This document shows, in pieces, positions 2,546 through 29,518 of a stretch of DNA of 29,518 nucleotides. A program made the position numbers and the translations under genes. Origin of the DNA: a virus; the IMG/VR virus record IMGVR_UViG_3300036823_000040, positions 1-29,518 of that record; one strand, given 5' to 3'. Under the pieces are notes generated by a model. It did not search any database. It was not told the origin of the DNA and saw only the letters and a list, made by a program, of their open reading frames with translations. How positions within the stretch are numbered: position 1 is the first letter of the stretch; each line of letters opens with the position of its first letter.

Positions 2546-3355
2546 CTATTTCGTGACGGTGCCGGGGCATCCGATGCCGGAACCATCGTGCGCGGAACCG
2601 GGCCGGTAGAACGGACAAAAGTAACATTCGTCGTGCGAGGGCTCCCGGGGGACGTCGGTGAGCTGACGTTCGCCGCTGCGCACCTGCTGGGCTTGCAGCT
2701 TGCGCCGGGCGGTCTCGGTAAACGTGTCCACCAGCTCCGCCACCGCCGTGTCGTCGAACGCGTGCTCCCACACGTACAACTCGTCCAGGGTGGACCGGGT
2801 GCGCGGGTAGGCGAGGATCGCCACCCGGGTCACCGGCAGGCCCTGGCGCAGGAAGCCCAGCCCGTAGAGATAGAGCTGGCGCCGGTACCTACGGGACGGC
2901 CCTTCCGGGCGGCGCACTTTCGCCAGGCTCGACTCACCCAGCACCTTGTGGTCCAGCACCGTGGCGGTGGACCGGTCGTAGAGGTCTCCGGTGCCGGCGT
3001 GCTCGGGGTGCGGGGTGACCCGGTGCTCGGTCATCCATCGCCGCGGGTCATCCGCGGTGAACGCATCCGCCAGCCAGGCGTGCACCGCGGTGCCCACCAC
3101 CGAGGGCCACGGATCGGTGACGTGGTTGGTGCGGGCCTCGCCGAGCAGCTTGCCCACCACCTGCCGGTCGCACGCCACGCCCAGCTCCGACGGGCCGATG
3201 TGCACCTGCTGACTGCGTGGCGCCCGGTCCGCCTGCCGGCGGACCAGCTCCCGCACTTCCCCCGCCAGCGCGTGCGCCCAGGGCGTGTTCCCCGACATCG
3301 CGGGAGCATCCGGGGTCGCACCGCTGGCGAGAAACTGGGCGAGACGCGTAGTCAT
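2546..3355 (-). CDS. Cas4/RecB-like PD-(D/E)XK exonuclease with Fe-S cluster
   Basis: 269 residues from the ATG at 3355, which overlaps the previous stop as ATGA; this fits better than the upstream GTG at 3397, which would run deep into the preceding gene. The catalytic core reads GTAVHAW (His92), GTGDLYD (Asp124), VLDHK (Asp135, Lys137) and QLYLY (Gln160, Tyr164), matching the RecB/Cas4 nuclease motifs. Cys62, then Cys244, Cys247 and Cys263, gives the split four-cysteine set that holds a 4Fe-4S cluster in Cas4 and AddB. Family members resect DNA ends. In phages they usually work in recombination or replication, which fits the neighbouring possible ssDNA-binding protein. No cas1, cas2 or repeat array is nearby, so a CRISPR role is not supported. 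Confidence 0.85.
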   Translation of the reverse strand: MTTRLAQFLASGATPDAPAMSGNTPWAHALAGEVRELVRRQADRAPRSQQVHIGPSELGVACDRQVVGKLLGEARTNHVTDPWPSVVGTAVHAWLADAFTADDPRRWMTEHRVTPHPEHAGTGDLYDRSTATVLDHKVLGESSLAKVRRPEGPSRRYRRQLYLYGLGFLRQGLPVTRVAILAYPRTRSTLDELYVWEHAFDDTAVAELVDTFTETARRKLQAQQVRSGERQLTDVPREPSHDECYFCPFYRPGSAHDGSGIGCPGTVTK

Positions 3356-3843
3356 GCTGTTACCGAAGCGTGGTCGGAGATCCAGCCTCGCGCCCACGCG
3401 GCCGCGCGCACCTTCTCGTACTCGGCGTACGCGGCCGCGCGCACCTTCTTGTACTCGGCGGACGCGGCCGCGTCCGCCCTGTCGTACTCGGCGTACGCGG
3501 CCGCGCGCACCTTCTTGTACTCGGCGAACGCGGGCGCGTCCGCCCTGTCGTACTCGGCGTACGCGGCCGCGCGCACCTTCTTGTACTCGGCGAACGCGGG
3601 CGCGGCCACCTTCTCGTACTCGGCGGACGCGGCCGCGTCCGCCCTGTCGTACTCGGCGTACGCGGCCGCGCTCAGCAGGTTCTCCGCTGCCCAGTCCCAG
3701 TCGAACTGGTCAGCGAAACGCACCGCCATCGGCACCGACACCTCAACACCATCCGGGAACAAGTCCCGGAAGACGTTCCGGTAGTCGGAGCAGGCTCGCT
3801 CCCCGCGCGTTCCGTCTAGGTCCGCGATCGTGATCCTGGCCAT
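3352..3843 (-). CDS. Hendecad-repeat helical protein
   Basis: 163 residues from the ATG at 3843, four bases before the stop of the upstream gene. Residues 1-61 form a small domain (MARITIADLDGTRGERACSD...). Residues 62-149 are eight consecutive 11-residue repeats of the type (Y/S/F)AEY(D/E/K)(R/K)xxAxA, followed by WARGWISDHASVTA. An 11-residue period with Ala and Tyr at fixed sites and alternating charge predicts a long continuous helix or right-handed coiled coil. It ends in an ATGA overlap with the exonuclease gene, so the two are translationally coupled. I recall similar Ala/Glu/Tyr repeat proteins in other phages, but none with a function I can name. The repeat number may vary between relatives. 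Confidence 0.8.
   Translation of the reverse strand: MARITIADLDGTRGERACSDYRNVFRDLFPDGVEVSVPMAVRFADQFDWDWAAENLLSAAAYAEYDRADAAASAEYEKVAAPAFAEYKKVRAAAYAEYDRADAPAFAEYKKVRAAAYAEYDRADAAASAEYKKVRAAAYAEYEKVRAAAWARGWISDHASVTA
3397..3660 (-). repeat. Eight tandem 33-bp coding repeats
   Basis: Eight direct repeats of 33 bp encode residues 62-149 of the hendecad protein. Several units are almost identical at DNA level, for example the recurrent gtactcggcg-acgcggccgcg blocks, so recent expansion by slippage or recombination is likely. There are no unique spacers, so this is not a CRISPR array. Confidence 0.9.
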
Positions 3844-3846
3844 GGT

Positions 3847-4203
3847 TCAGTTCTTCTTTCCGCGCGTCAGGTACCACGCGCCGCTGGTCCTGGTGTACTG
3901 CTCAGCGAGGACGGGGTGCGCCTCGCGCAGCGCCTTCGTGTCGATCTTGTCGGTGGTGCGGTAGTCCAGCACCCAGGGAGCGCGCAGCGCCGGGCTGGCG
4001 TACTCGGCGTGCACGACGCCCGTGTCGGTGTTCTCGGCGATGCCGAGCTGGTAGAGCTCCGCCTTGACCGCGGCCTTGAGCGCGTCCAGGCGTTCGGCCG
4101 CGGCCTTCGCGTCCGCCTCCGCCGTGTCGTAGACCGCGGCGAGCTGCGCGAGGCGTTCCAGCGGTCCGATCGGAGTGGGGCGATCCAGTGAGTTCGTCGT
4201 CAT
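3847..4203 (-). CDS. Small conserved phage protein, first gene of the leftward operon
   Basis: 118 residues from the ATG at 4203 (MTTNSLDRPTPIGPLERLAQ...). The upstream frame-extending start at 4239 would fall on the -35 box of promoter P1 and is unlikely. The -10 box lies exactly 7 bases upstream of the ATG, so the mRNA is probably leaderless, although the same bases (AGGGTGG) could act as a ribosome site. The N-terminal half is an Ala/Lys/Glu helix, probably coiled coil (about 25-60). The C-terminal half ends DKIDTKALREAHPVLAEQYT, then TSGAWYLTRGKKN. This D-x-K-x-L-(K/R)-E-x-x-P-x-L pattern resembles small phage proteins found beside recombination exonucleases, but I assign no function. Confidence 0.75.
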   Translation of the reverse strand: MTTNSLDRPTPIGPLERLAQLAAVYDTAEADAKAAAERLDALKAAVKAELYQLGIAENTDTGVVHAEYASPALRAPWVLDYRTTDKIDTKALREAHPVLAEQYTRTSGAWYLTRGKKN

Positions 4204-4210
4204 GGACACC

Positions 4211-4239
4211 ACCCTACGCGCCTTGCCACGAGTTGCCAA
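4211..4239 (-). promoter_or_regulatory. Promoter P1 of the leftward operon (TTGGCA-N17-TAGGGT)
   Basis: On the minus strand the -35 box TTGGCA (4239-4234), a spacer of exactly 17 bases and the -10 box TAGGGT (4216-4211) form the best promoter in the window. Seven bases separate the -10 box from the ATG at 4203, so transcription probably starts at or next to the start codon. A direct repeat, TTGCCA-CGAG-TTGCCA (plus strand 4223-4238), covers the -35 box and spacer and could be an operator. Confidence 0.7.
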
Positions 4240-4328: not shown

Positions 4329-4364
4329 GCGCGCAGCCTGTGAGCTACCAGAGGAGTGTACCTC

Positions 4365-7300
4365 GTGACAGACCCCGTTGACCCGTACCTCTGGCTGGCG
4401 GAGCGTGGAATCCCCCGGGGGATCGCAGAGCTGGCTAACCCGCAGATCGTGGACATCGGTCTCCAGTTCACCCTGCCCACCCTGGACGGTGAGCCGTTCG
4501 TTCAGACGCTCGTGCGGGAAGAACTGCGGGAGACCGCCGGCGGCACCCTCCCGAAGTACCAGTCGCCCATCGGGCGCGTCGCTGTGTTCCGCCCGGTGCC
4601 ACGCCCGGACGCCACCCGGATCGCGATCGTGGAAGGCACGAAAGGCCACCTGGCCGCTGCTGCCTACGCGCCTGAGGACACCGAGGTCTGGGGTCTGGCT
4701 GGATGCCAGAACTGGGGCCGGGCCGGGGTGCCACTGCCCGAGCTGGCCGCGGTGGCCGGACGAGACGTGGTGATCTGTTTCGACGGGGACCTGACCCGCA
4801 ACGCCGACGTCTGGCACGCCGCGCACGGTCTCGGCGACACCCTCGCGTCGATGGGCGCGCTCTCGGTCCGGTGGGTGTACGGGATCCTGCGCGGCACCGC
4901 GTCCCTCGATGACTATCTCGCCACCGTGGCCGAACCCGCCCGTGCCGGCGTGCTCACCGGCTACCTGGCCAGCGGCAAAGGGACGCTGGGGCGGGCGCCG
5001 GCGCGCCGGGAGAAAGAACCCGAGCCCACCGAGCGGGACATCGACGCGGACGAGTTGACGGTGGCGAAGGCGTTCGCCAAACAGTTCGGCGACCAGGTGC
5101 GTTTCGACGCCACCACGGAACGGTGGCTGGTCTACGCCAGTGCGTGGCATACCGACGGGGCGGGCGCCGCGGTCAAACGCATGTACCACCTGCTGGTGGA
5201 CGGGATCGTGCGGCCGATGGGCACCGTGACCGCACCGGGAGGGATCACGATCAAGCGGGAGGAACGGCGCTGGTCGCGATCGCGGTCGGTGCGGGACGCC
5301 GTGCTCTCGATGGCCGGTGCCGAAGACCCGGTCACCCACTTCGGGGACTGGGATACCGACCCCTACCTGTTCGCCTGCCACAACGGCACGCTGGACCTGC
5401 GTACCGGCACCATCCGGGACAGCCGACCCGACGATCACATCACCCGCCTGGCGGGCACCGGCTGGGACGATGACGCCACCTGCCCCGAGTTCGAGCGGTT
5501 CCTGTCCGAAGCCCTGCCGGACGCCGACGTGCGGGGCTACCTACAACGCGTGCTCGGCATGGCGCTGCTGGGCAAGGTCACCGACCACGTCTTGCCCGTG
5601 CTGATCGGTGAGGGCCGCAACGGCAAGGGCACGCTGCTGCGCGTCATGCTCGCCGCGTTCGGCAGCTACGGGACCGGGGTGAACCGCAACCTGCTGATCG
5701 AGCAGCGCAACCCCGGGCACCTGACGGAGTTGATGACCTTGAAAGGCAAGCGGCTGGCGGTCACCCAGGAGACCAACCAGCGCTCGGTCTGGGATGTCAC
5801 CCGGATCAACACACTGACCGGTGGGGACGCGATCACGGCGCGGGGGATGCACGAAGACGAACAGACCTTCGAGCCCAGCCACACGCTGGTGCTGGCCACC
5901 AACCACCGGCCGTCCGTCGCCCCCAACGAGTCCGCGTTCTGGTCCCGGTACCGGGAGATCCCGTTCACCGTGTCGTTCGAGGGGCGGGAAGACACCGGCC
6001 TGGCCGACCGGATCGTCACGGGCGAGTTGCCTGGTGTGCTGCGGTGGCTGGCCGCCGGTTACACCGAGTACACGCATCGCGGTCTCGATGCGCCGCTGGC
6101 CGTCCAGCTCGCCGATGTGGCGGCCAAGGCGGAGGCCAACGCGTTCTCGATGTTCCTCACGACGCACTACATCGTGACCGGTCTGGAATCGGACATTATG
6201 CCGACGAAATCGGTCTGGGCGAAGTGGTCCGCGTACCGGATGACGGACCGGGACGCAGCCCAATGCCCCCCGAATCAGATCCAGCAACTCAAGCGTGCCC
6301 TCGTCAGCCATGACCGCCGCCTCGTCAGCGGACCCAGGAGGGAGGCGGGTGCGACGGTGGTGGGCCTGCGGGAGGCCGGTCCGGCTGACGAGGTGCCTGA
6401 CGAGGATGCCCCGGTTCCTGACGAGGAAATGACGAGGACTGGTCGGTCACCAATACCCTTGGTGACCTGCGAAAACACTACTAATCCTGACGAGGATGAC
6501 GAGGCTGACGAGAATAAAGAGCTAGCAGTTAAGGCAGTAGACACAAAGACCCAAAAGCAAGATCAACAAGAGTGTTCTATATCCGTAGGAGCAGCCCAAT
6601 GCGAATCCTCGTCAGCCTCGTCAGCTCGTCAGGCGGTAGTGATCGACATCGAGGGCCCGGACGTCGCCGCCCGGTGGGATGACCGGGCGGAGGGATACAC
6701 CCACCTGGTCGGCCTGCGCACCGCCACCGGGGCCACCGACACCGCCGGGTCACCGGGCGGGGTACGCGCCGGGAACGCCGCGGCCGCGGCGATCGTCGGA
6801 GCGTCACCGATGGTGATCGGGCACAACCTGATCTCGTTCGACCTTCCGGTGCTCGCCCGCCAGTTCCCGGATGCCGGTATCGACGTGCTCGCCATGACCC
6901 GGGACCGGCGCGTCCTGGACACCATGGTCATCGACGCCACCCTCAACCCCCCGGTGCACGACGGACGGCCCGGGTTCGTGGAACGCGCAGCCCAGGCGTA
7001 TTCGCTCAACGCGTCCTGCGAGCGGCACGGCATGCCCGGCAAGACCGACCACCTGCCCGCGCTGGCGGCCTATCACGGCGGGTTCGACCGGATCCCCGTC
7101 CAGGACCCCGCCTACCGGGCTTACCTGGCCGGTGACCTGGACGCCACCGCCCGGCTCGCCCAGGCCCTGCTGTCCGGCATGACGGACTACGCCTGGCGGG
7201 AACAGCGGGTGGCCGCGATCGCGTCCGTCATCACCGACATCGGGATCATGGTCAACAAGGCGCTGGCCACACAGCGCCACGCCGAGATCGCGGCCCGGCG

Positions 7301-8426
7301 GGTGGCGCTCACCGAGCACCTGGTCACCCAGTACGGCATCCCCACCACGAAGGCGGACGGCACCGAGTCCAGCAACCCGGCGGCCACCCGGGACGGCAAG
7401 GCTGCGATCGAAGCCGCCTTCCGCGACGCCGGCGTTGCGCCCGCCCAGCTGCCCCGTACGCCAAAGGGGGCCTTCGCCACGGGCCGCGAGGGCATGGAAG
7501 AGCTTGCCGCCGCGTACGCGGGCAACGAGCGGGTCACCGACCTGTGCCAGGTGGTAGCGGACATGTCCGGCCTGCGCACCGTCTACGGCACCGCGCTGGA
7601 CACGCTGCGCGGGGACGGCGCCTGCCACCCCGGTGTGGCGTTCTTCCAGGCATCCGGACGCTGGAGCCTCACCAAGCCCGGCATGACCGTCTACGGCAAG
7701 CGCAACGGGCGCGTGGTGGAACGCGAGATCTTCGTCCCGCGTCCCGGGCACGTACTGCTCACCGCCGACCTGTCCCAGATCGACGCCCGGGCCATCGCCG
7801 TGCACAGCCAGGACCCGGCATACATGGCCCTGTTCGAGCCCGGCACCGACTCGCACGACGAGGTGGCCGCGCTGGTCTGGGGCGAATGGGACCGCGCCAG
7901 TGGCCACCACCCCCGGCGGCACGACGCGAAGGCGATCGGCCACGGTTACAACTACGGGATGGGCATCCCGAAGCTGGCCGCCACCGCCGGGGTACCGGAG
8001 CGCACGGCCACCGAGTTCGACGCCACCATGAAGACCAGCTTCCCGGTGCTGACCACCTGGAAGGACTGGATCCGGGAGCAGGCCAAGACCGGCGAGCCGC
8101 TGGACAACGGGTTCGGCCGGAAGCTCTACGTCGACCCGGACCGCACCTACACCCAGGCGCCCGCGCTGATGGGCCAGGGCACCGCCCGGGACCTGATGGC
8201 GGAGACCATGTTGCGCCTGCCGGACTGGGTGGCCCGGATGCTGCGCATTCAGGTGCACGACGAAGCCGTCTACGAAGTGCCGACCGGGCAGGTGGACGAG
8301 GTGACCGCGATCGTGCACGCCGCGATGAACTTTGAGTGGGCGCCGCTGTCGGGCATGCGGCCGATCCAGGTCACCGCGGAAGTCAACAAGCCGGGTGTGA
8401 ATTGGATGGACTGCTACACCGATTGA
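4365..8426 (+). CDS. Toprim - SF3 helicase (D5) - 3'-5' exonuclease - family A DNA polymerase fusion
   Basis: 1353 residues from the GTG at 4365 (GAGGAG 8 bases upstream; the in-frame GTG at 4356 overlaps that site). Four parts can be read. Toprim-like domain, about 84-190: VEG with Glu90, FDGD with Asp140 and Asp142, LDDYL with Asp182-183. D5-type SF3 helicase, about 225-660: Walker A GEGRNGKGT with Lys421, Walker B Glu469, sensor TN with Asn513. An acidic, AT-rich linker, about 660-755. Proofreading exonuclease plus family A polymerase: DIE (Asp761, Glu763), NLISFD (Asn821, Asp826), YLAGD (Tyr920, Asp924), motif A DLSQIDARAIA (Asp1135), motif B with Lys1189, motif C HDE (1298-1300). All key catalytic residues are present. 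Primase-helicase and polymerase are normally separate phage genes. The Toprim part could be a primase remnant or active; that is not decided by sequence. Confidence 0.93.
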   Translation: MTDPVDPYLWLAERGIPRGIAELANPQIVDIGLQFTLPTLDGEPFVQTLVREELRETAGGTLPKYQSPIGRVAVFRPVPRPDATRIAIVEGTKGHLAAAAYAPEDTEVWGLAGCQNWGRAGVPLPELAAVAGRDVVICFDGDLTRNADVWHAAHGLGDTLASMGALSVRWVYGILRGTASLDDYLATVAEPARAGVLTGYLASGKGTLGRAPARREKEPEPTERDIDADELTVAKAFAKQFGDQVRFDATTERWLVYASAWHTDGAGAAVKRMYHLLVDGIVRPMGTVTAPGGITIKREERRWSRSRSVRDAVLSMAGAEDPVTHFGDWDTDPYLFACHNGTLDLRTGTIRDSRPDDHITRLAGTGWDDDATCPEFERFLSEALPDADVRGYLQRVLGMALLGKVTDHVLPVLIGEGRNGKGTLLRVMLAAFGSYGTGVNRNLLIEQRNPGHLTELMTLKGKRLAVTQETNQRSVWDVTRINTLTGGDAITARGMHEDEQTFEPSHTLVLATNHRPSVAPNESAFWSRYREIPFTVSFEGREDTGLADRIVTGELPGVLRWLAAGYTEYTHRGLDAPLAVQLADVAAKAEANAFSMFLTTHYIVTGLESDIMPTKSVWAKWSAYRMTDRDAAQCPPNQIQQLKRALVSHDRRLVSGPRREAGATVVGLREAGPADEVPDEDAPVPDEEMTRTGRSPIPLVTCENTTNPDEDDEADENKELAVKAVDTKTQKQDQQECSISVGAAQCESSSASSARQAVVIDIEGPDVAARWDDRAEGYTHLVGLRTATGATDTAGSPGGVRAGNAAAAAIVGASPMVIGHNLISFDLPVLARQFPDAGIDVLAMTRDRRVLDTMVIDATLNPPVHDGRPGFVERAAQAYSLNASCERHGMPGKTDHLPALAAYHGGFDRIPVQDPAYRAYLAGDLDATARLAQALLSGMTDYAWREQRVAAIASVITDIGIMVNKALATQRHAEIAARRVALTEHLVTQYGIPTTKADGTESSNPAATRDGKAAIEAAFRDAGVAPAQLPRTPKGAFATGREGMEELAAAYAGNERVTDLCQVVADMSGLRTVYGTALDTLRGDGACHPGVAFFQASGRWSLTKPGMTVYGKRNGRVVEREIFVPRPGHVLLTADLSQIDARAIAVHSQDPAYMALFEPGTDSHDEVAALVWGEWDRASGHHPRRHDAKAIGHGYNYGMGIPKLAATAGVPERTATEFDATMKTSFPVLTTWKDWIREQAKTGEPLDNGFGRKLYVDPDRTYTQAPALMGQGTARDLMAETMLRLPDWVARMLRIQVHDEAVYEVPTGQVDEVTAIVHAAMNFEWAPLSGMRPIQVTAEVNKPGVNWMDCYTD
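6299..6632. repeat. Iteron-like array of TGACGAG, candidate replication origin
   Basis: Twelve copies of TGACGAG or its complement CTCGTCA lie in 334 bp inside the interdomain linker of the fusion gene. The 9-bp sites begin at 6299 and 6320 (inverted), 6385, 6397, 6418, 6429, 6487, 6496 and 6505 (direct), then 6607, 6616 and 6624 (inverted). Spacings are 21, 12, 21, 11 and runs of 9 bp. The triplets at 6487-6512 and 6607-6632 form a large inverted repeat around an AT-rich core (6513-6606, about 45% GC). The copies occupy all three codon phases, so the DNA word itself appears conserved. This matches the look of an iteron origin with an unwinding element. Confidence 0.6.
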
Positions 8427-8792: not shown

Positions 8793-9085
8793 GCAGGTTG
8801 CAAGCGGGCAAGGGCCGCAAGCTCTGGGACTACTGGCTGCACGGCGCCGGCGCGGCGAAGATCGGCTGGGGCACGCCGGGCGACTACAACCGCGCGGTGG
8901 CGCTGCTGAGCAAGTACACGCCGACCGGCGCGCACGGCCTGGCCGCCGAGCTGCACCAGGCGGCCACCGGCATGTCCACCGCCGAGCACGCCAAGTTGTT
9001 GAAAGGCAAGGCGGGTGGCTCGGCGCATAGTGGCGGCGCGGCCCGCACGGCGGCCGTCATCCGCACCCATCTGGGAGGTAGTTGA
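8783..9085 (+). CDS. Small conserved phage protein upstream of terminase
   Basis: 100 residues; the ATG lies 6 bases after GGGAGG and overlaps the previous gene by 10 bases. The N-terminal segment KLWDYWLHGAGAAKIGWGTPGDYNRA is strongly reminiscent of a family of about 100 residues that sits just before the terminase genes in many actinophages, where the pattern LWxYWxxGxGaxKIxWGxPGDFxRC recurs. Here the family's usual Cys at the end of the motif is Ala. No enzymatic motif or membrane segment is seen. Role unknown; packaging or head assembly is suggested only by position. Confidence 0.75.
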   Translation: MAVSRLQAGKGRKLWDYWLHGAGAAKIGWGTPGDYNRAVALLSKYTPTGAHGLAAELHQAATGMSTAEHAKLLKGKAGGSAHSGGAARTAAVIRTHLGGS

Positions 9086-9087
9086 TC

Positions 9088-9630
9088 ATGCCTTCGCAGC
9101 GGTCACGGGCGTTGAGACAAGGACCGTTGACGATCAGTGAACGTGCCGCCCGAGCTGCGGATATCATCGTTCGGCACGAGCACGGCGAGACGTTTTCGGC
9201 CATCGGCAAGCGGTACTTGATCAGCTCGCAGAAGTGCCACGAGATCTATTGGACCAACATCAAGGCGCAGCCCGCCAAGGCGGTCGACGAGCACCGGGTC
9301 ACGATGGTGCGCCAGTTCGACGAGCAGGAAACGATGATCCGCGAACTGCTCACCAAGAAGCACTACGCGATCAGCGAAGGCCACCTGGTCTACCTGCGCG
9401 AAGGTGAACCGCCGCTGGAAGACGACGCGTTTGCCCTACAGGCGTTCAAGTCTCTGCGCGACGTGTGGGCGCAGAAGGCGAAGCTGCTCGGTCTCAACGC
9501 ACCGGACAAGGTCCAGCAGACGGTAGAGATCGCCACGGTCACGCAGCAGGACCTGGCGATCCGGGAACTGTTGCAGCAGCAGAAGGCGCTCAACAAGCAG
9601 TCGCGAGAGGACATCCGCAGTGACCAGTGA
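9088..9630 (+). CDS. Probable terminase small subunit
   Basis: 180 residues from the ATG at 9088, 8-10 bases after GGGAGGT; a TTG at 9082 is less likely. The N-terminal third contains a helix-turn-helix-like segment (ERAARAADIIVRHEHGETFS, then AIGKRYLISSQKCHEIY), as expected for DNA recognition by a terminase small subunit. It is followed by a long helical region with Gln/Glu-rich stretches that could form the oligomerisation helices. Position two genes before the large subunit supports the call. The sequence is not diagnostic, because small subunits diverge fast. Confidence 0.65.
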   Translation: MPSQRSRALRQGPLTISERAARAADIIVRHEHGETFSAIGKRYLISSQKCHEIYWTNIKAQPAKAVDEHRVTMVRQFDEQETMIRELLTKKHYAISEGHLVYLREGEPPLEDDAFALQAFKSLRDVWAQKAKLLGLNAPDKVQQTVEIATVTQQDLAIRELLQQQKALNKQSREDIRSDQ

Positions 9631-20013: not shown

Positions 20014-22954
20014 CGAATCCGGCAAGGTCAAGATCGCGGCGGCGTATGTCTCCGTCGACGTCGAAGCAGATCAGGCAGCAGTCGACGCCACTACAGCGGA
20101 GATCGCGGAGAAGCTGCGCGCGGGGCTCGCCGACGCCGGCAAGGTCATGATCACTGCGGACGTGGACGAAGAGTCCGCGATCGCGGCAGGTGAGCTGCTC
20201 GGCGAGGCAGCACAGAGCGCAGCTCACGAGGTCCTGCTCAAAGCCAACCTGGACGAAGAGTCCGCCACCGCGGCAGGCGAGCTGATCGGTGAGGTAGCGC
20301 AGCGGGCCGCGGGCGAGGTCACGATCAAGGCCAGCCCGGACGATGTGTCCGGTGCGGAGGCGGGCGCGGAGGTAGGCGAGGCAGCGACCGCGGCCGCACA
20401 GAAGAACGCTAAATCCGGTGGCATCGGCATGGGCACGCTGATCGCCACCGGGATCGCGTTCGCCGCGCCGCTGGCAGGTGCCGCGATCATCGCCGGGGTG
20501 GGTGCCGGGTTCATCGGCCTGGCCGCGCTGGCGGACAAGAGCAACGCCCAGATCAAATCGAGCTGGAAGAACCTCACCGACGATCTCACGTCGGAAACCA
20601 AGAGCGCCGCGAATGACTTGTCCGGGTCACTCGCGCAGGGCCTGGACACGCTCAGCGGCGCCGCGGTCGCGGCGAAGCCCGCGCTGGACCAGATCTTCGA
20701 GAGCGTCAAGCCCGATATCCCGATCGTGGCCACCGGGCTCGCCGAGCTGGGCACCAACCTGCTCCCTGGCCTGACCGCGGCGGCGAGCAACAGCCAGCCG
20801 GTCATACAGGGCACTACGTCGCTGCTCTCGCAGCTCGGCACCACCGGCTCGGACATGCTCACCACACTGTCCGGCAACGCGCGGAACTTCGGCGCGGTGA
20901 TGACGTCCACCGGCTCGATCGTGCACACCGCCGGGAACATCGTCGCCAACGTCGCCTCTGACCTCGGGACGGTCTGGGGCCAGAACATGTCCTCGATGGA
21001 CAGCGCGGTCAGCGGGGTCGGTCGCGCGGTCAGCGGGCTGGCATCCGGCGCGGTGCCGGTGCTGTCGGCAGGATTGAACGTGGTCACCACCGATATCTCC
21101 GCCGTGACGTCCGCGATCGGTCCACTGACTCCGGCGCTGGGCGGTATCGCCACGTCCGCGCTGCTGGCCTGGGGTGCGTTCAAAGGTGCGGATCTCGTCA
21201 CGTCCGGCATCAAAAATCTTGGCAGCAACGTGGTCGACTTTGGCGCCAAGGTAGAGAATGTGTCGCCGAAGCTCGGTGGCCTGATCGGCAAGACCGGCAT
21301 CGCCGCATCGAGCATCGCCGGGCCGCTCGGTCAGGCGGTCGCGCTCGGCGCGGTCGGACTGGGCATCTACGCGGACTACGCGAACCGGGGTGCGATCAGC
21401 TCTACCGACATGGCCAGCGCGTCCAGCGCCCTGACCGCAGCTCTCAACCAGACCGGCGGCGCGGTCACCACCGCCACTACCGCGGCACTGAAAAACACCG
21501 ACGCGTGGAAAGCCCTCGTTCCCGAGTTGCAGCAGGCGGGGATCTCGCAGGACGATGCGATCCGGGCCATCGAGGGTGGTGGCCCGGCGCTGGACGCGCT
21601 GAACACGAAGCTGGGTGATACCGGCACCGGGCAACACAACCTGTCGGTAGAGACCAAAGGTGCGAACACCGACCTGAACAACCAGTCCCACAACACCTCC
21701 GAGCTGAAGTCCAATCTGGACAGTCTGCACACCACGTTCGCGCAGGCGGTTGCGGATGCCAAGGCGCAGGCGGACGCGACGAAGCAGGCGGCGGATGCGC
21801 AGCAGCTGCTGAATATCCAGGCGGTCGCCACCGGGGGCATCAACTTCGCTGGTCCGCTCGGCACCATGCAGAGCGCGCTGGCGGGCCTAGGTAACGCGGC
21901 ATCGAACGACACCACCAAGGTCACCGATCTGTCCAACGCGCTCCAGGCGCTGATCAACCCGGGCGGCGCGGCGATCACCACCCTGGCGGGGATTTCCACC
22001 ACCGAGCAGGGCCTCGCCGACCAGCTGAAAAACCTTAAGGGCCCGCTCACCGACGCGAACGGGCAACTGGACCTGAACAGCACCCGGGGCGCGGCAGCGG
22101 CCACCGCGATCGAAGGGCTGTCCACCAACTACACCCAGTACATCGCGCAGGCCAAGGAAGCGGGCACCCCGACCGCGACAATCAACGCCAACCTGCAAAC
22201 CCAGTACGACAACCTGGTCAAGACCACCTCCGGGTTCACCGGCTCCACCGCGTCCGCCAAGGCATACCTGCAACAACTCGGCATCCTGCCGCCCACCGCC
22301 GAGACGACGGCCGCGTTCAACGACACGAAGGCGCTCGCCGAGCTGGCCAACCTGGGTATCCAGACGAAGGCGCTCCCGGATGGGAGTATCACGGTCCAGG
22401 CGCTCACGGCCGACGCACTCGCCAAGATCACAGCGGCGGGCTACATCGCTCAGCACCAGCCGGACGGCACGATCCGCATCGTCGCGGACGACAGCTCGGC
22501 GCTGGGCACGTTCAACACGTTGGTCAACGGCATCAACAACCGGGTCGCCACGTTGCAGATTCACGGCGTCGTCACCGGCGTCACCGGCGGTGGATCGATC
22601 ACCAACATCCTGCACGCCACGGGTGGGATCAAGCACGCCACCGGTGGACTGACCCCAGTGGCGCCCATCGCCCAGATCGCGCCGCCCAGTTCGTTCCTCA
22701 CCCCCAACGGCGGCCAGGACGTCTTCGGCGACCGCCCGGACGTCAACGAGGCGTACATCCCGATGGACGGCTCCGCGCGCTCGGGTGCCCTGCTCGATCA
22801 GGTCAACGCGGCGATGCCGGGGCACGGTGGCGGGCACACGGTCAGCAACACCTACGCCCCCACCGTCAACATCGGCGGCACCGACCCCGCGCGGGTTGTC
22901 GCAGAGCTGCAATCCGAGTTCTCCTGGTACAACATGATCGGGAGGGCAGCATGA
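20006..22954 (+). CDS. Tape measure protein
   Basis: 982 residues from the GTG at 20006, overlapping the chaperone stop. It sets tail length; at about 1.5 angstroms per residue the tail would be roughly 150 nm. The N-terminal part has three tandem 29-residue repeats (residues 47-75, 76-104, 105-133). It is followed by a hydrophobic stretch (about 140-175, GTLIATGIAFAAPLAGAAII) that may insert into the host membrane during ejection. The middle is Ala/Thr/Asn-rich helix. The last 150 residues are Gly-rich and include the HATGGIKHATGGLTP segment common near tape-measure ends. No peptidase or lysozyme motif is seen. Confidence 0.92.
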   Translation: MADESGKVKIAAAYVSVDVEADQAAVDATTAEIAEKLRAGLADAGKVMITADVDEESAIAAGELLGEAAQSAAHEVLLKANLDEESATAAGELIGEVAQRAAGEVTIKASPDDVSGAEAGAEVGEAATAAAQKNAKSGGIGMGTLIATGIAFAAPLAGAAIIAGVGAGFIGLAALADKSNAQIKSSWKNLTDDLTSETKSAANDLSGSLAQGLDTLSGAAVAAKPALDQIFESVKPDIPIVATGLAELGTNLLPGLTAAASNSQPVIQGTTSLLSQLGTTGSDMLTTLSGNARNFGAVMTSTGSIVHTAGNIVANVASDLGTVWGQNMSSMDSAVSGVGRAVSGLASGAVPVLSAGLNVVTTDISAVTSAIGPLTPALGGIATSALLAWGAFKGADLVTSGIKNLGSNVVDFGAKVENVSPKLGGLIGKTGIAASSIAGPLGQAVALGAVGLGIYADYANRGAISSTDMASASSALTAALNQTGGAVTTATTAALKNTDAWKALVPELQQAGISQDDAIRAIEGGGPALDALNTKLGDTGTGQHNLSVETKGANTDLNNQSHNTSELKSNLDSLHTTFAQAVADAKAQADATKQAADAQQLLNIQAVATGGINFAGPLGTMQSALAGLGNAASNDTTKVTDLSNALQALINPGGAAITTLAGISTTEQGLADQLKNLKGPLTDANGQLDLNSTRGAAAATAIEGLSTNYTQYIAQAKEAGTPTATINANLQTQYDNLVKTTSGFTGSTASAKAYLQQLGILPPTAETTAAFNDTKALAELANLGIQTKALPDGSITVQALTADALAKITAAGYIAQHQPDGTIRIVADDSSALGTFNTLVNGINNRVATLQIHGVVTGVTGGGSITNILHATGGIKHATGGLTPVAPIAQIAPPSSFLTPNGGQDVFGDRPDVNEAYIPMDGSARSGALLDQVNAAMPGHGGGHTVSNTYAPTVNIGGTDPARVVAELQSEFSWYNMIGRAA
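20144..20404 (+). repeat. Three 87-bp coding repeats in the tape measure gene
   Basis: Three consecutive 29-residue units have the pattern V-x-I/L-x-A-x-x-D-E-E-S-A-x-A-A-G-E-L-x-G-E. Units 1 and 2 are close to each other; unit 3 is degenerate. They probably arose by duplication and may change tail length in steps. Confidence 0.8.
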
Positions 22955-27840: not shown

Positions 27841-28309
27841 CGTCCAATACCTCCGTCACCGTCGCGGTCAGCGTCGCTTTGGACGACGCGGTTTGAGCCA
27901 TGTCTTGAGCGTCCTCATGGGCCTCAGACCCGGTGATGGTGAGGTTGCCGATCTGGACACCGTCTGAGCCACCAGTGAGCTGGTACACCACGGTGTAGGT
28001 ACTCGGATCGGCGGCATCGCACGCGGTGCATGTCGGCTGGATCCGGTACGCCACGTCGCAGCCTGCCGACCCGAAGCACTGTTTGGACAGCACTACTACG
28101 GCGAGGGTGATGCTGCTGGCATCCGGCGGGGTGTAGGTCGGAGGGGCGACGGTAGCCGCTGGCTCGGCGGGTGCCGGTGCGACCGTCGTCGTAGGGCTCG
28201 ACAACTGCGCGGGGCTCGTGTCGACCGGCAGGCCACCACACGCGCTCAGCCCCGCCACGATCGTCGCCGTGGCCACGCCAGCCAGTGCCAGCCTTGTGAA
28301 AAGTTTCAC
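27833..28309 (-). CDS. Secreted lipoprotein of unknown function
   Basis: 158 residues from the GTG at 28309, with GAGGAGA upstream; the stop of the glycosyltransferase gene overlaps its start. Residues 1-23 are a lipoprotein signal peptide (MKLFTRLALAGVATATIVAG) ending in the lipobox LSAC, so Cys24 is lipid-modified. A Pro/Thr/Ala linker (25-65) leads to a folded domain with the pattern CFGSAGCDVAYRIQPTCTAC. This is like the small domain of actinobacterial lipoproteins in which a CFGSAGCNV motif precedes strands and ends in TVTEV. It would sit on the outer face of the membrane. Lysogen surface change or exclusion of other phages is an inference from place. Confidence 0.8.
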   Translation of the reverse strand: MKLFTRLALAGVATATIVAGLSACGGLPVDTSPAQLSSPTTTVAPAPAEPAATVAPPTYTPPDASSITLAVVVLSKQCFGSAGCDVAYRIQPTCTACDAADPSTYTVVYQLTGGSDGVQIGNLTITGSEAHEDAQDMAQTASSKATLTATVTEVLDGG

Positions 28310-28920
28310 CAGCGGTCTCCTCGTCCACTCGTGTTGCCCGGTTTGCCGGGCCGTCCAGGGCCTACGTGATTCCAGATGAACGTCTGACGGGGCACATGCA
28401 CGAACCGCGCGCCGGCGTCCAGCATCCGCAGCCAGCAGCCCCAGTCGTCGTAGTCACAGCCTGCCGGGGCACCGAAGCCGCCCGCCTTCGTGAGCAGCGC
28501 CGTGCGCGCCAGGCTGGTAGTCTGGATGTAGCTGCGTGCCCGCAGCGTGGCCGCGTCGAACGGCCGGAAGTACATCGGCTCCAGCGACACGAACCGGGGG
28601 TTCTGCGGGATCAGTGGCACCGAGTACGCCACGTCCGCGTCGTGGTCCCGCACCGCTTCGCGCAGCTCTTGCAGGTGATAGGGCAGCATCGCGTCGTCGT
28701 CGTCCAGCATGGCGACCCACTCGGTCTCCGCTAGGCCGATACCGGCGTTCTTGGTGACCGCGGCGCCGGCGTGTTCCTTGTCGGTCACCACGATGATCTC
28801 GCGCGGCTGGTAGGTCTGCTGGTCCACTGAGCGCAGCGCCCGCTTCAACTGCTTCTCCCGGGTGGAAATGTGCGCGATCACCACCGTGATGTCGCTGGCC
28901 GGGTTCAGGTGGTAGCGCAT
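28306..28920 (-). CDS. Family 2 glycosyltransferase (GT-A)
   Basis: 204 residues from the ATG at 28920, with GGGGGT upstream; a further upstream start at 28953 would run deeper into the preceding gene. The GT-A fold is clear: DITVVIAHISTREKQLKRAL, then REIIVVTDKEHAGAAVTKNA, then the metal and sugar-nucleotide site MLDDDDAMLP (Asp73-76). The acceptor half (GCDYDDWGCWLRMLDAGARF) is typical of GT2 enzymes. It would transfer a sugar from a nucleotide donor; donor and acceptor cannot be read. It overlaps the next glycosyltransferase by 16 bases and the lipoprotein start by 4. Confidence 0.88.
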   Translation of the reverse strand: MRYHLNPASDITVVIAHISTREKQLKRALRSVDQQTYQPREIIVVTDKEHAGAAVTKNAGIGLAETEWVAMLDDDDAMLPYHLQELREAVRDHDADVAYSVPLIPQNPRFVSLEPMYFRPFDAATLRARSYIQTTSLARTALLTKAGGFGAPAGCDYDDWGCWLRMLDAGARFVHVPRQTFIWNHVGPGRPGKPGNTSGRGDRW

Positions 28921-29518
28921 GACGGCACCCCCAGCCCGAGCGCTGCTTGCCACAGCCCGATGTTGCCTTCGATCGTGTTGCGCCGCGCGGTCTGGATCCC
29001 GTTGGTGACCACATTGAGCCGGATCTCCGGGTCACGCAGGCGGCGCAGCACAGTCGGTAGGTGCACCGGGTCGTCCAGTAGGATGCCGTCCACGCCATGC
29101 CGGACGAAGCTGGCGTAAGGCCCGACGTTAGCGGCCACCGGGACGATGCCCAGCGCCATGCACTCCAGCGCCTTGATCCAGCTCTTGGACTCGTTGAACG
29201 TGGTGCGCGCCAGCGGGATCACCGACACGTCGAAATCCAGGGCGCGCAGGTAGTCCTCGGTGTCGTCGATCCAGTCGGTGACGGTCGCGCTCTCCAGCCC
29301 GTAGGCTTTCCCGCCGAACACGCTGAGCGTGTCCTGGTGCCCGGCGTTGACCGGTGCGGTCATCCACCGGTTGAGCGCCCGCACCCAGCCGTCGTTCCAA
29401 TCGTCGACGTGGTGCCGCGATCCGCCCCAGCCCAGGTGCAGGTTCGTGGTGTCACCCTGGCGCAGGTAGCTGTCCGAGCGCAGCGTCCACGCGGGGATGA
29501 AATTGGGAACCACGGTGA
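28905..29518 (-). CDS. GT-B glycosyltransferase, C-terminal part (N-terminus beyond window)
   Basis: At least 202 residues; the frame stays open to the window edge and the first visible GTG (29513) falls in the middle of a domain, so the gene probably begins outside. The visible part is the donor-binding half of a GT4-type GT-B enzyme: it opens with VPNFIPAWTL, then LDFDVSVIPLARTTFNESKS, then IKALECMALGIVPVAANVGP. The last part includes the E-x7-E-like region and a closing helix. It works with the adjacent GT2 enzyme in one operon, probably building a short glycan. Confidence 0.85.
   Translation of the reverse strand, partial: TVVPNFIPAWTLRSDSYLRQGDTTNLHLGWGGSRHHVDDWNDGWVRALNRWMTAPVNAGHQDTLSVFGGKAYGLESATVTDWIDDTEDYLRALDFDVSVIPLARTTFNESKSWIKALECMALGIVPVAANVGPYASFVRHGVDGILLDDPVHLPTVLRRLRDPEIRLNVVTNGIQTARRNTIEGNIGLWQAALGLGVPSCATT

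Follow-up and report, generated by a model that had tools for sequence, protein, structure and literature searches.

The question raised by this locus is whether a dense cluster of one short word, lying within the coding sequence of a long replication gene, serves the DNA rather than the protein. The window analysed here is the whole of IMG/VR virus record IMGVR_UViG_3300036823_000040 (29,518 nucleotides), and a preliminary description of its sequence had proposed the cluster as a candidate origin. We consider it highly probable that the array serves as an iteron-type origin for a phage whose D5/SF3 helicase loads itself, and that this origin is also translated as an interdomain linker; no binding or replication data are available. 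What was computed is the array, how it is arranged and where it lies in relatives, its independence of reading frame, its AT-rich core, its conservation with respect to one relative, the covariation of its word with the helicase C-terminal domain and the fold of the helicase.

When exact matches on both strands were counted, 13 copies of TGACGAG were found in the window, of which 12 are located at 6300-6631 and one at 21194. This agrees with the twelve TGACGAG/CTCGTCA copies originally described in 334 bp. Shuffling of the whole record (n = 100) gave a mean count of 5.4 and a largest count of 12. The clustering within 400 bp has a Poisson p-value of approximately 4e-23, or approximately 3e-19 once corrected for 8192 words, and chance does not come close to explaining it, even when the selection of this particular word is taken into account. 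An equal density of the motif elsewhere would, according to the preliminary description, have refuted the proposal; as the rest of the record has one copy in 29 kb, this is not the case. The GC-skew analysis that it also suggested revealed no evident switch at the array.

The start-to-start spacings of the 12 copies are 21, 65, 12, 21, 11, 58, 9, 9, 102, 9 and 8 bp. The three spacings given previously (9, 12 and 21 bp) are thus all present, but that list was incomplete in that 8 and 11 bp occur as well. Counted from the start of the ORF, the copies fall in codon phases 0, 0, 2, 2, 2, 1, 2, 2, 2, 2, 2 and 1, so the reported use of three phases was correct, as was the arrangement of two opposed triplets around an AT-rich core (Table 1): within the linker, AT content peaks in a 60-bp stretch that starts at 6523 and is 38% GC, in a record of approximately 67% GC. 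Placement of the array in the linker holds only in part. The ORF continues without interruption across the array, but copies 1 and 2 are inside the DNA encoding the predicted C-terminal domain of the helicase, ahead of the linker proper.

Table 1. Features of the array and of the ORF in which it lies (window positions)
Feature	Position	Strand	Basis or remark
TGACGAG copy 1	6300..6306	-	exact match
TGACGAG copy 2	6321..6327	-	exact match
TGACGAG copy 3	6386..6392	+	exact match
TGACGAG copy 4	6398..6404	+	exact match
TGACGAG copy 5	6419..6425	+	exact match
TGACGAG copy 6	6430..6436	+	exact match
Left triplet (starts 6488, 6497, 6506; 9 bp apart)	6488..6512	+	
AT-rich core separating the facing triplets, candidate unwinding element	6513..6607	no strand	
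Right triplet (starts 6608, 6617, 6625; 9 and 8 bp apart)	6608..6631	-	
Single ORF, 1356 aa: primase-like, D5/SF3 helicase, linker, exonuclease-like, PolA	4356..8426	+	
Primase-like N-terminal part	4356..5009	+	PHROG DNA primase; Pfam DUF3854 only below cut-off
D5/SF3 helicase with C-terminal domain	5010..6398	+	Pfam; structural alignment of the model with SaPI5 primase-helicase 7ola/7om0
Predicted beta-helix-helix-helix-beta-beta C-terminal domain, candidate iteron-binding	6195..6374	+	moderate model confidence
Exonuclease-like region and PolA polymerase domain	6642..8423	+	PHROG exonuclease match; Pfam DNA_pol_A

The ORF has Pfam matches to D5_N (2e-21), DUF5906 (1e-10) and DNA_pol_A, and PHROG matches to a primase at its N-terminus and to an exonuclease ahead of the polymerase. 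The primase-like part also contains what we take to be TOPRIM-like motifs. Downstream of the ORF, terminase, portal and major head matches were obtained (Pfam and PHROGs). The helicase was matched by profile to C962R and 7ola, and the best solved structural matches to an AlphaFold2 model of this part (463 aa, mean pLDDT 83) were the D5-type helicases ASFV C962R, SaPI5 primase-helicase 7ola and poxvirus D5. The alignment with 7ola (Z 27.9, rmsd 7.8, 381 residues) extends to model residue 457, based on the range of first and last aligned residues. At residues 396-455, the model predicts a C-terminal beta-H-H-H-beta-beta domain (pLDDT 63-88 by block), for which DNA binding is only a candidate function. 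The gene had been called an SF3 replication protein, and Pfam, PHROG and fold matches identify it as a fusion of a D5-type SF3 helicase with a PolA polymerase.

The closest relative, L004, is 97% identical to the window and carries the same 12 TGACGAG copies, retaining both the linker peptide and the repeats. Only 2 of 334 positions of array DNA differ between the two, and none of the 84 motif positions, whereas the flanking coding DNA differs at 131 of 3734 positions (Fisher p 0.002 versus the array); there are 44 differences in the 1943 nucleotides of the N-terminal and helicase part and 87 in the 1791 nucleotides of the exonuclease and polymerase part. An unconstrained linker should be the most variable segment, but the linker DNA here is the least variable, as far as a single sequence pair can indicate.

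Repeats were also sought by a motif-blind geometry, in which a 6-mer occurs at i and i+d and its reverse complement at j and j+d. A discovery set of 80 viral loci was obtained by polymerase-profile scan, and many of their helicase-polymerase junctions hold a two-stranded repeat array with a word differing from TGACGAG. The layout that kept returning was copies spaced 9 bp apart and inverted on the two sides of a core. In a test that scored repeats regardless of geometry, 26 of the 75 junctions (window included) were in the top 5% of their own locus, with 14 topmost, while the remaining junctions of the 75 were unremarkable; five loci were skipped as their upstream DNA was too short. The geometry search (d 7-14) covered 79 of the loci (L047, a copy of L004, was omitted), the window and ten phage regions. 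It produced 28 matches at junctions, 22 of them at 9 bp and some from the same locus, and 8 matches elsewhere (6 at 9 bp), including one in L008, where no polymerase was placed. Five shuffled passes gave 2 matches.

As the 9-bp hypothesis came from this first set, a second set counts as its test. Three helicase-profile scans yielded 165 loci, of which 128 had an overlap of at most 30% in sampled 40-mers, both with the first set and with one another; 126 of these had a helicase match. With d from 6 to 30, there were 52 matches (44 of which have d=9) on the 3' side of the helicase and 7 elsewhere, compared to 1 in one shuffled pass, and a d=9 array was located 3' of the helicase in 41 of the 126 loci. 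The loci are related both across and within sets, so these counts are not independent events.

The two sets were pooled into 215 loci (87 from the first and 128 from the second). After exclusion of 47 without a helicase match and 7 with fewer than 700 bases beyond the helicase, 161 remained. A strict d=9 array is present in 56 of these (16/42 discovery loci and 40/119 second-set loci) and absent in 105; the L092 array, found in the discovery search, was missed by the pooled region limits. The d=9 matches number 59 in 110,445 target bases versus 8 in 1,567,410 other bases. Where helicase and polymerase are fused in one ORF, the array lies in frame in 30 of 49 loci, while it was found in 11 of 38 where the polymerase has its own gene and in 15 of 74 with no polymerase inside 2.5 kb. 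Among the 112 unfused loci, it is wholly past the helicase stop codon in 18, across the stop in 2 and within the 3'-terminal part of the helicase ORF in 6. Nine of the 20 arrays past or across the stop are under no ORF of at least 80 aa on either strand, indicating that the 9-bp spacing need not stem from codons, and the 30 fused arrays together occupy all three codon phases. The distance between the arms is 61-74 in 40 of the 56 loci; at 119, the window is one of a smaller group with long cores. In 54 of the 56, the core has a lower GC content than its locus; the mean gap is 16 points. The expectation that relatives would conserve the repeats while varying the linker peptide was therefore met for the arrangement, which is kept across loci, but not for the word, which is not.

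Many loci still lack a convincing array. When mismatches were allowed in those without a strict one and nine spacings were compared, d=9 came out best in 10.6 of the 19 loci with a fused ORF, in 9.1 of the 27 split ones and in 14.4 of the 59 that have no polymerase; one ninth would be expected if spacings were equal, and there was no shuffled baseline. L048, the second-closest relative (62% helicase identity), has no strict array and keeps neither TGACGAG nor, by eye, the linker peptide. Of L004 and L048, neither retains the peptide without the repeats, the second refuting condition of the preliminary description. Around the C-terminal domain, the identity of L048 is only 36% (last 68 columns), and its array is different and degenerate, with 4 mismatches needed for the best d=9 array. 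Scored without geometry, its repeat count is unremarkable (39 of 66 other windows score as well). No array was found in the linker of phiAsp2 Pas55, an isolated fused protein, or in that of its viral-contig copy L099.

The exact word was also sought elsewhere. A search of viral contigs for the TGACGAG triplet pattern gave 32 stretches. Only one of these, L038 (the contig of L004), contains the array, and two more show weak polymerase similarity and nothing further. In the other 31 stretches, the geometry control gave 7 matches, 4 of which are in L026 and L034; this is a harsh control, as the set was picked for the tandem word. A scan of genome contigs with the window helicase gave 20 stretches fitting a pattern, with no relative among them. 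In L026 (1740-1830), four TGACGAG copies at 9 bp end a gene for a helicase-like ATPase (identified by reading the translation, without a domain search) and an inverted copy lies just past the stop codon; the copy layout at L034 1991-2080 is the same. These are possibly an independent, unrelated origin of similar geometry.

In Woodruffvirus-like phages, clear arrays are located upstream of the primase in 4 of 11 testable loci. Two-stranded arrays (TGCATGCTC, TTCGCGGGA) are found upstream of the primase gene in the Woodruffvirus phages Mischief19 (L007, 1134-1450) and phiSAJS1 (L008, 1151-1453), and L216 and L223 have upstream arrays too. Of the ten phage regions examined first, phiSAJS1 alone had a geometry match, upstream of the primase. 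In a further comparison of 14 isolates (the first 8 of which were covered by the geometry scan), clear two-stranded arrays that top their region lie just 3' of the helicase gene in Ruthiejr, Megsy and R18.1, and weaker ones 3' of the helicase in FuzzBuster, SM23 and RootBeer. Wyvern has a high repeat score there without a geometry match, and nothing notable was found 3' of the helicase in the other 7 (OscarSo, LuckyBarnes, Ascela, GMA4, Sooty, Javan255 and Pleakley). The clear arrays are not strict 9-bp cases: the spacing is d=10 in Ruthiejr, d=9 in Megsy only with 5-mers and 12 by positions in R18.1. RootBeer has d=9, 371 bases past the stop. In the dairy phages Sfi21 and A2, origin repeats occupy a gap after the primase-helicase gene and are non-coding and unfused. 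The array of Lacticaseibacillus phage R18.1 (L302, 3536-3800) resembles this type, with GGGAGGATGA-like repeats in both orientations in an AT-rich gap after the helicase gene.

Over the 56 loci (1485 pairs, after 55 of 1540 were dropped for too few shared columns), word distance correlates with distance in the helicase C-terminal part, defined as the last 90 well-filled columns ahead of the array (r 0.58), and with distance in the helicase core (r 0.49). The partial correlation with the C-terminal part given the core is 0.356 (p 0.001, 999 permutations), while that with the core given the C-terminal part is -0.004. On this sequence comparison, the array words track the helicase C-terminal domain and not the core; covariation bears on binding only indirectly. 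The history of the fusion was assessed with a quick polymerase tree of 86 rows, from which one of the 49 fused loci is absent. Fused and split states require 10 changes, at least 7 of them forced by well-supported branches, and thus on that tree fusion at this place was gained or lost several times. The four rows nearest to the window by path are fused and the fifth, L056, is split.

The proposal of a candidate origin is supported by this comparison with relatives, while origin function itself is inferred, as are binding, ring assembly, melting, bidirectional replication and use in vivo. We propose that the C-terminal domain of the helicase would bind two groups of short sites in opposing orientation on either side of the AT-rich core, and that one helicase ring would assemble on each side. 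The core would then melt and two forks depart, with primase and polymerase arriving on the same polypeptide as the helicase. In related phages, the putative element is found immediately 3' of the helicase gene, frequently in DNA that no long ORF covers; in the window, the polymerase gene is fused in frame across it, so that the putative origin is also translated as an interdomain linker. The two-armed 9-bp geometry is kept while the word drifts along with the C-terminal domain. More broadly, it is likely, with less assurance than for the window itself, that phage origins defined by geometry (9-bp pairs facing across an AT-rich core of near-constant length, with a word co-evolving with the C-terminal domain) are widespread and were swallowed in many lineages by helicase-polymerase fusion, resulting in a one-gene replisome with the origin inside.

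Could the array instead be an operator, bound by the helicase or a separate repressor to regulate transcription without origin function? Inverted tandem sites can serve as operators, the C-terminal binding suggested by covariation is alone no proof of initiation, and in unfused loci the array is often ahead of the next gene. It is, however, deep within one ORF in 30 fused loci, the window among them, and the lower GC of the core in 54 of 56 loci is also unfavourable, as is the binding of comparable downstream repeats by SaPI and SCC helicases as origins or putative origins, according to PMC7581432. We therefore regard an operator as unlikely.

The remaining two explanations concern the transcript and its product. 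Pairing of the arms in RNA could affect translation, termination or message processing, and perfect inverted repeats of at least 12 bp with loops of 25-150 bases do occur in 60 of 161 loci. Yet 51 of these 60 also have tandem 6-mers by the arm, a feature that is superfluous for a hairpin, and in 44 of the 51 their commonest spacing is 9 bp; the window holds copies beyond the facing triplets; and the words covary with a protein domain. An RNA element is accordingly very unlikely. That the repeats merely follow from a linker peptide of repetitive acidic or low-complexity sequence is scarcely tenable. Tandem TGACGAG at 9 bp does arise outside the contig of L004, in 31 of the 32 viral-contig stretches, and certain fused linkers read the repeats in frame (e.g. 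VTPVT). Against this, the copies occur on both strands and in three phases, all three phases are used among the 30 fused arrays, 9 of the 20 arrays past or across the helicase stop are in no ORF of 80 aa, and the array DNA is better conserved than the flanking domains with respect to L004.

The inferred origin has partial counterparts among known systems. SaPI5 Rep/PriRep1, SaPIbov1 Rep and the putative origin of SCCmec Cch2 are like the window in having short repeats directly downstream of the helicase; SaPI5 and Cch2 have D5-type helicases, as the window does, and the window model aligns to 7ola/7om0. According to PMC7581432, SaPI origins immediately follow the gene for the Rep helicase, whose C-terminal domain recognises them, and Cch2, the D5-type helicase of SCC, uses its C-terminal domain to bind repeats located downstream of its own gene. 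The SaPI and SCC repeats are described as intergenic and without a fused polymerase, whereas the window array is translated and its polymerase fused; a further difference is the two-armed 9-bp geometry with drifting words that is common to many phages. By fold, place, repeats and covariation, the window element fits the SaPI/SCC kind, with binding, melting and replication being inferred.

SV40 T-antigen and papillomavirus E1 are SF3 helicases whose origins are facing pairs of tandem sites beside AT-rich DNA. The candidate binding domain in the window is C-terminal, in contrast to the N-terminal origin-binding domain used by these proteins (PMC7581432). Lambda gene O is like the window in that iterons lie inside the coding sequence of an initiator. 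These iterons are at the linker position of O, a non-helicase that recruits the host helicase through P. The initiator candidate of the window is, in contrast, itself a D5/SF3 helicase with primase-like and polymerase parts. The location of the lambda origin within the initiator coding sequence is noted in PMC7157519.

In literature titles and abstracts, we found no translated origin in a helicase-polymerase linker and no such 9-bp geometry. The sole study that surfaced in which actinobacterial phage origins were mapped deals with extrachromosomal prophages (PMC7157519). A geometry independent of the word would provide testable origins in many phages, and the series of naturally matched pairs, each a helicase domain with its DNA word, could be used to determine how an SF3 helicase recognises its origin. 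The window would also be a case of DNA under two codes at once, with inferred binding sites and an in-frame linker.

Strong two-stranded 7-mer arrays were also observed away from the helicase-polymerase junction in L052 (10446-10746, AATTAGT x11), L116 (13457-13767, CCGTGCA x10) and L118 (4321-4589, AGGGGCC x11). Elsewhere in the window, eight copies of a 33-bp unit at 3419-3660 correspond by eye to an 11-aa repeat (EKVRAAAYAEY-like) on the minus strand in ORF 3352-3843, which adjoins a RecE-like exonuclease match at 3847-4239. Just past the polymerase region is a PHROG match named RNase E (9082-9630, plus strand), and a glycosyltransferase family 2 gene of the PHROG class moron/auxiliary is located at 28306-28953 on the minus strand.
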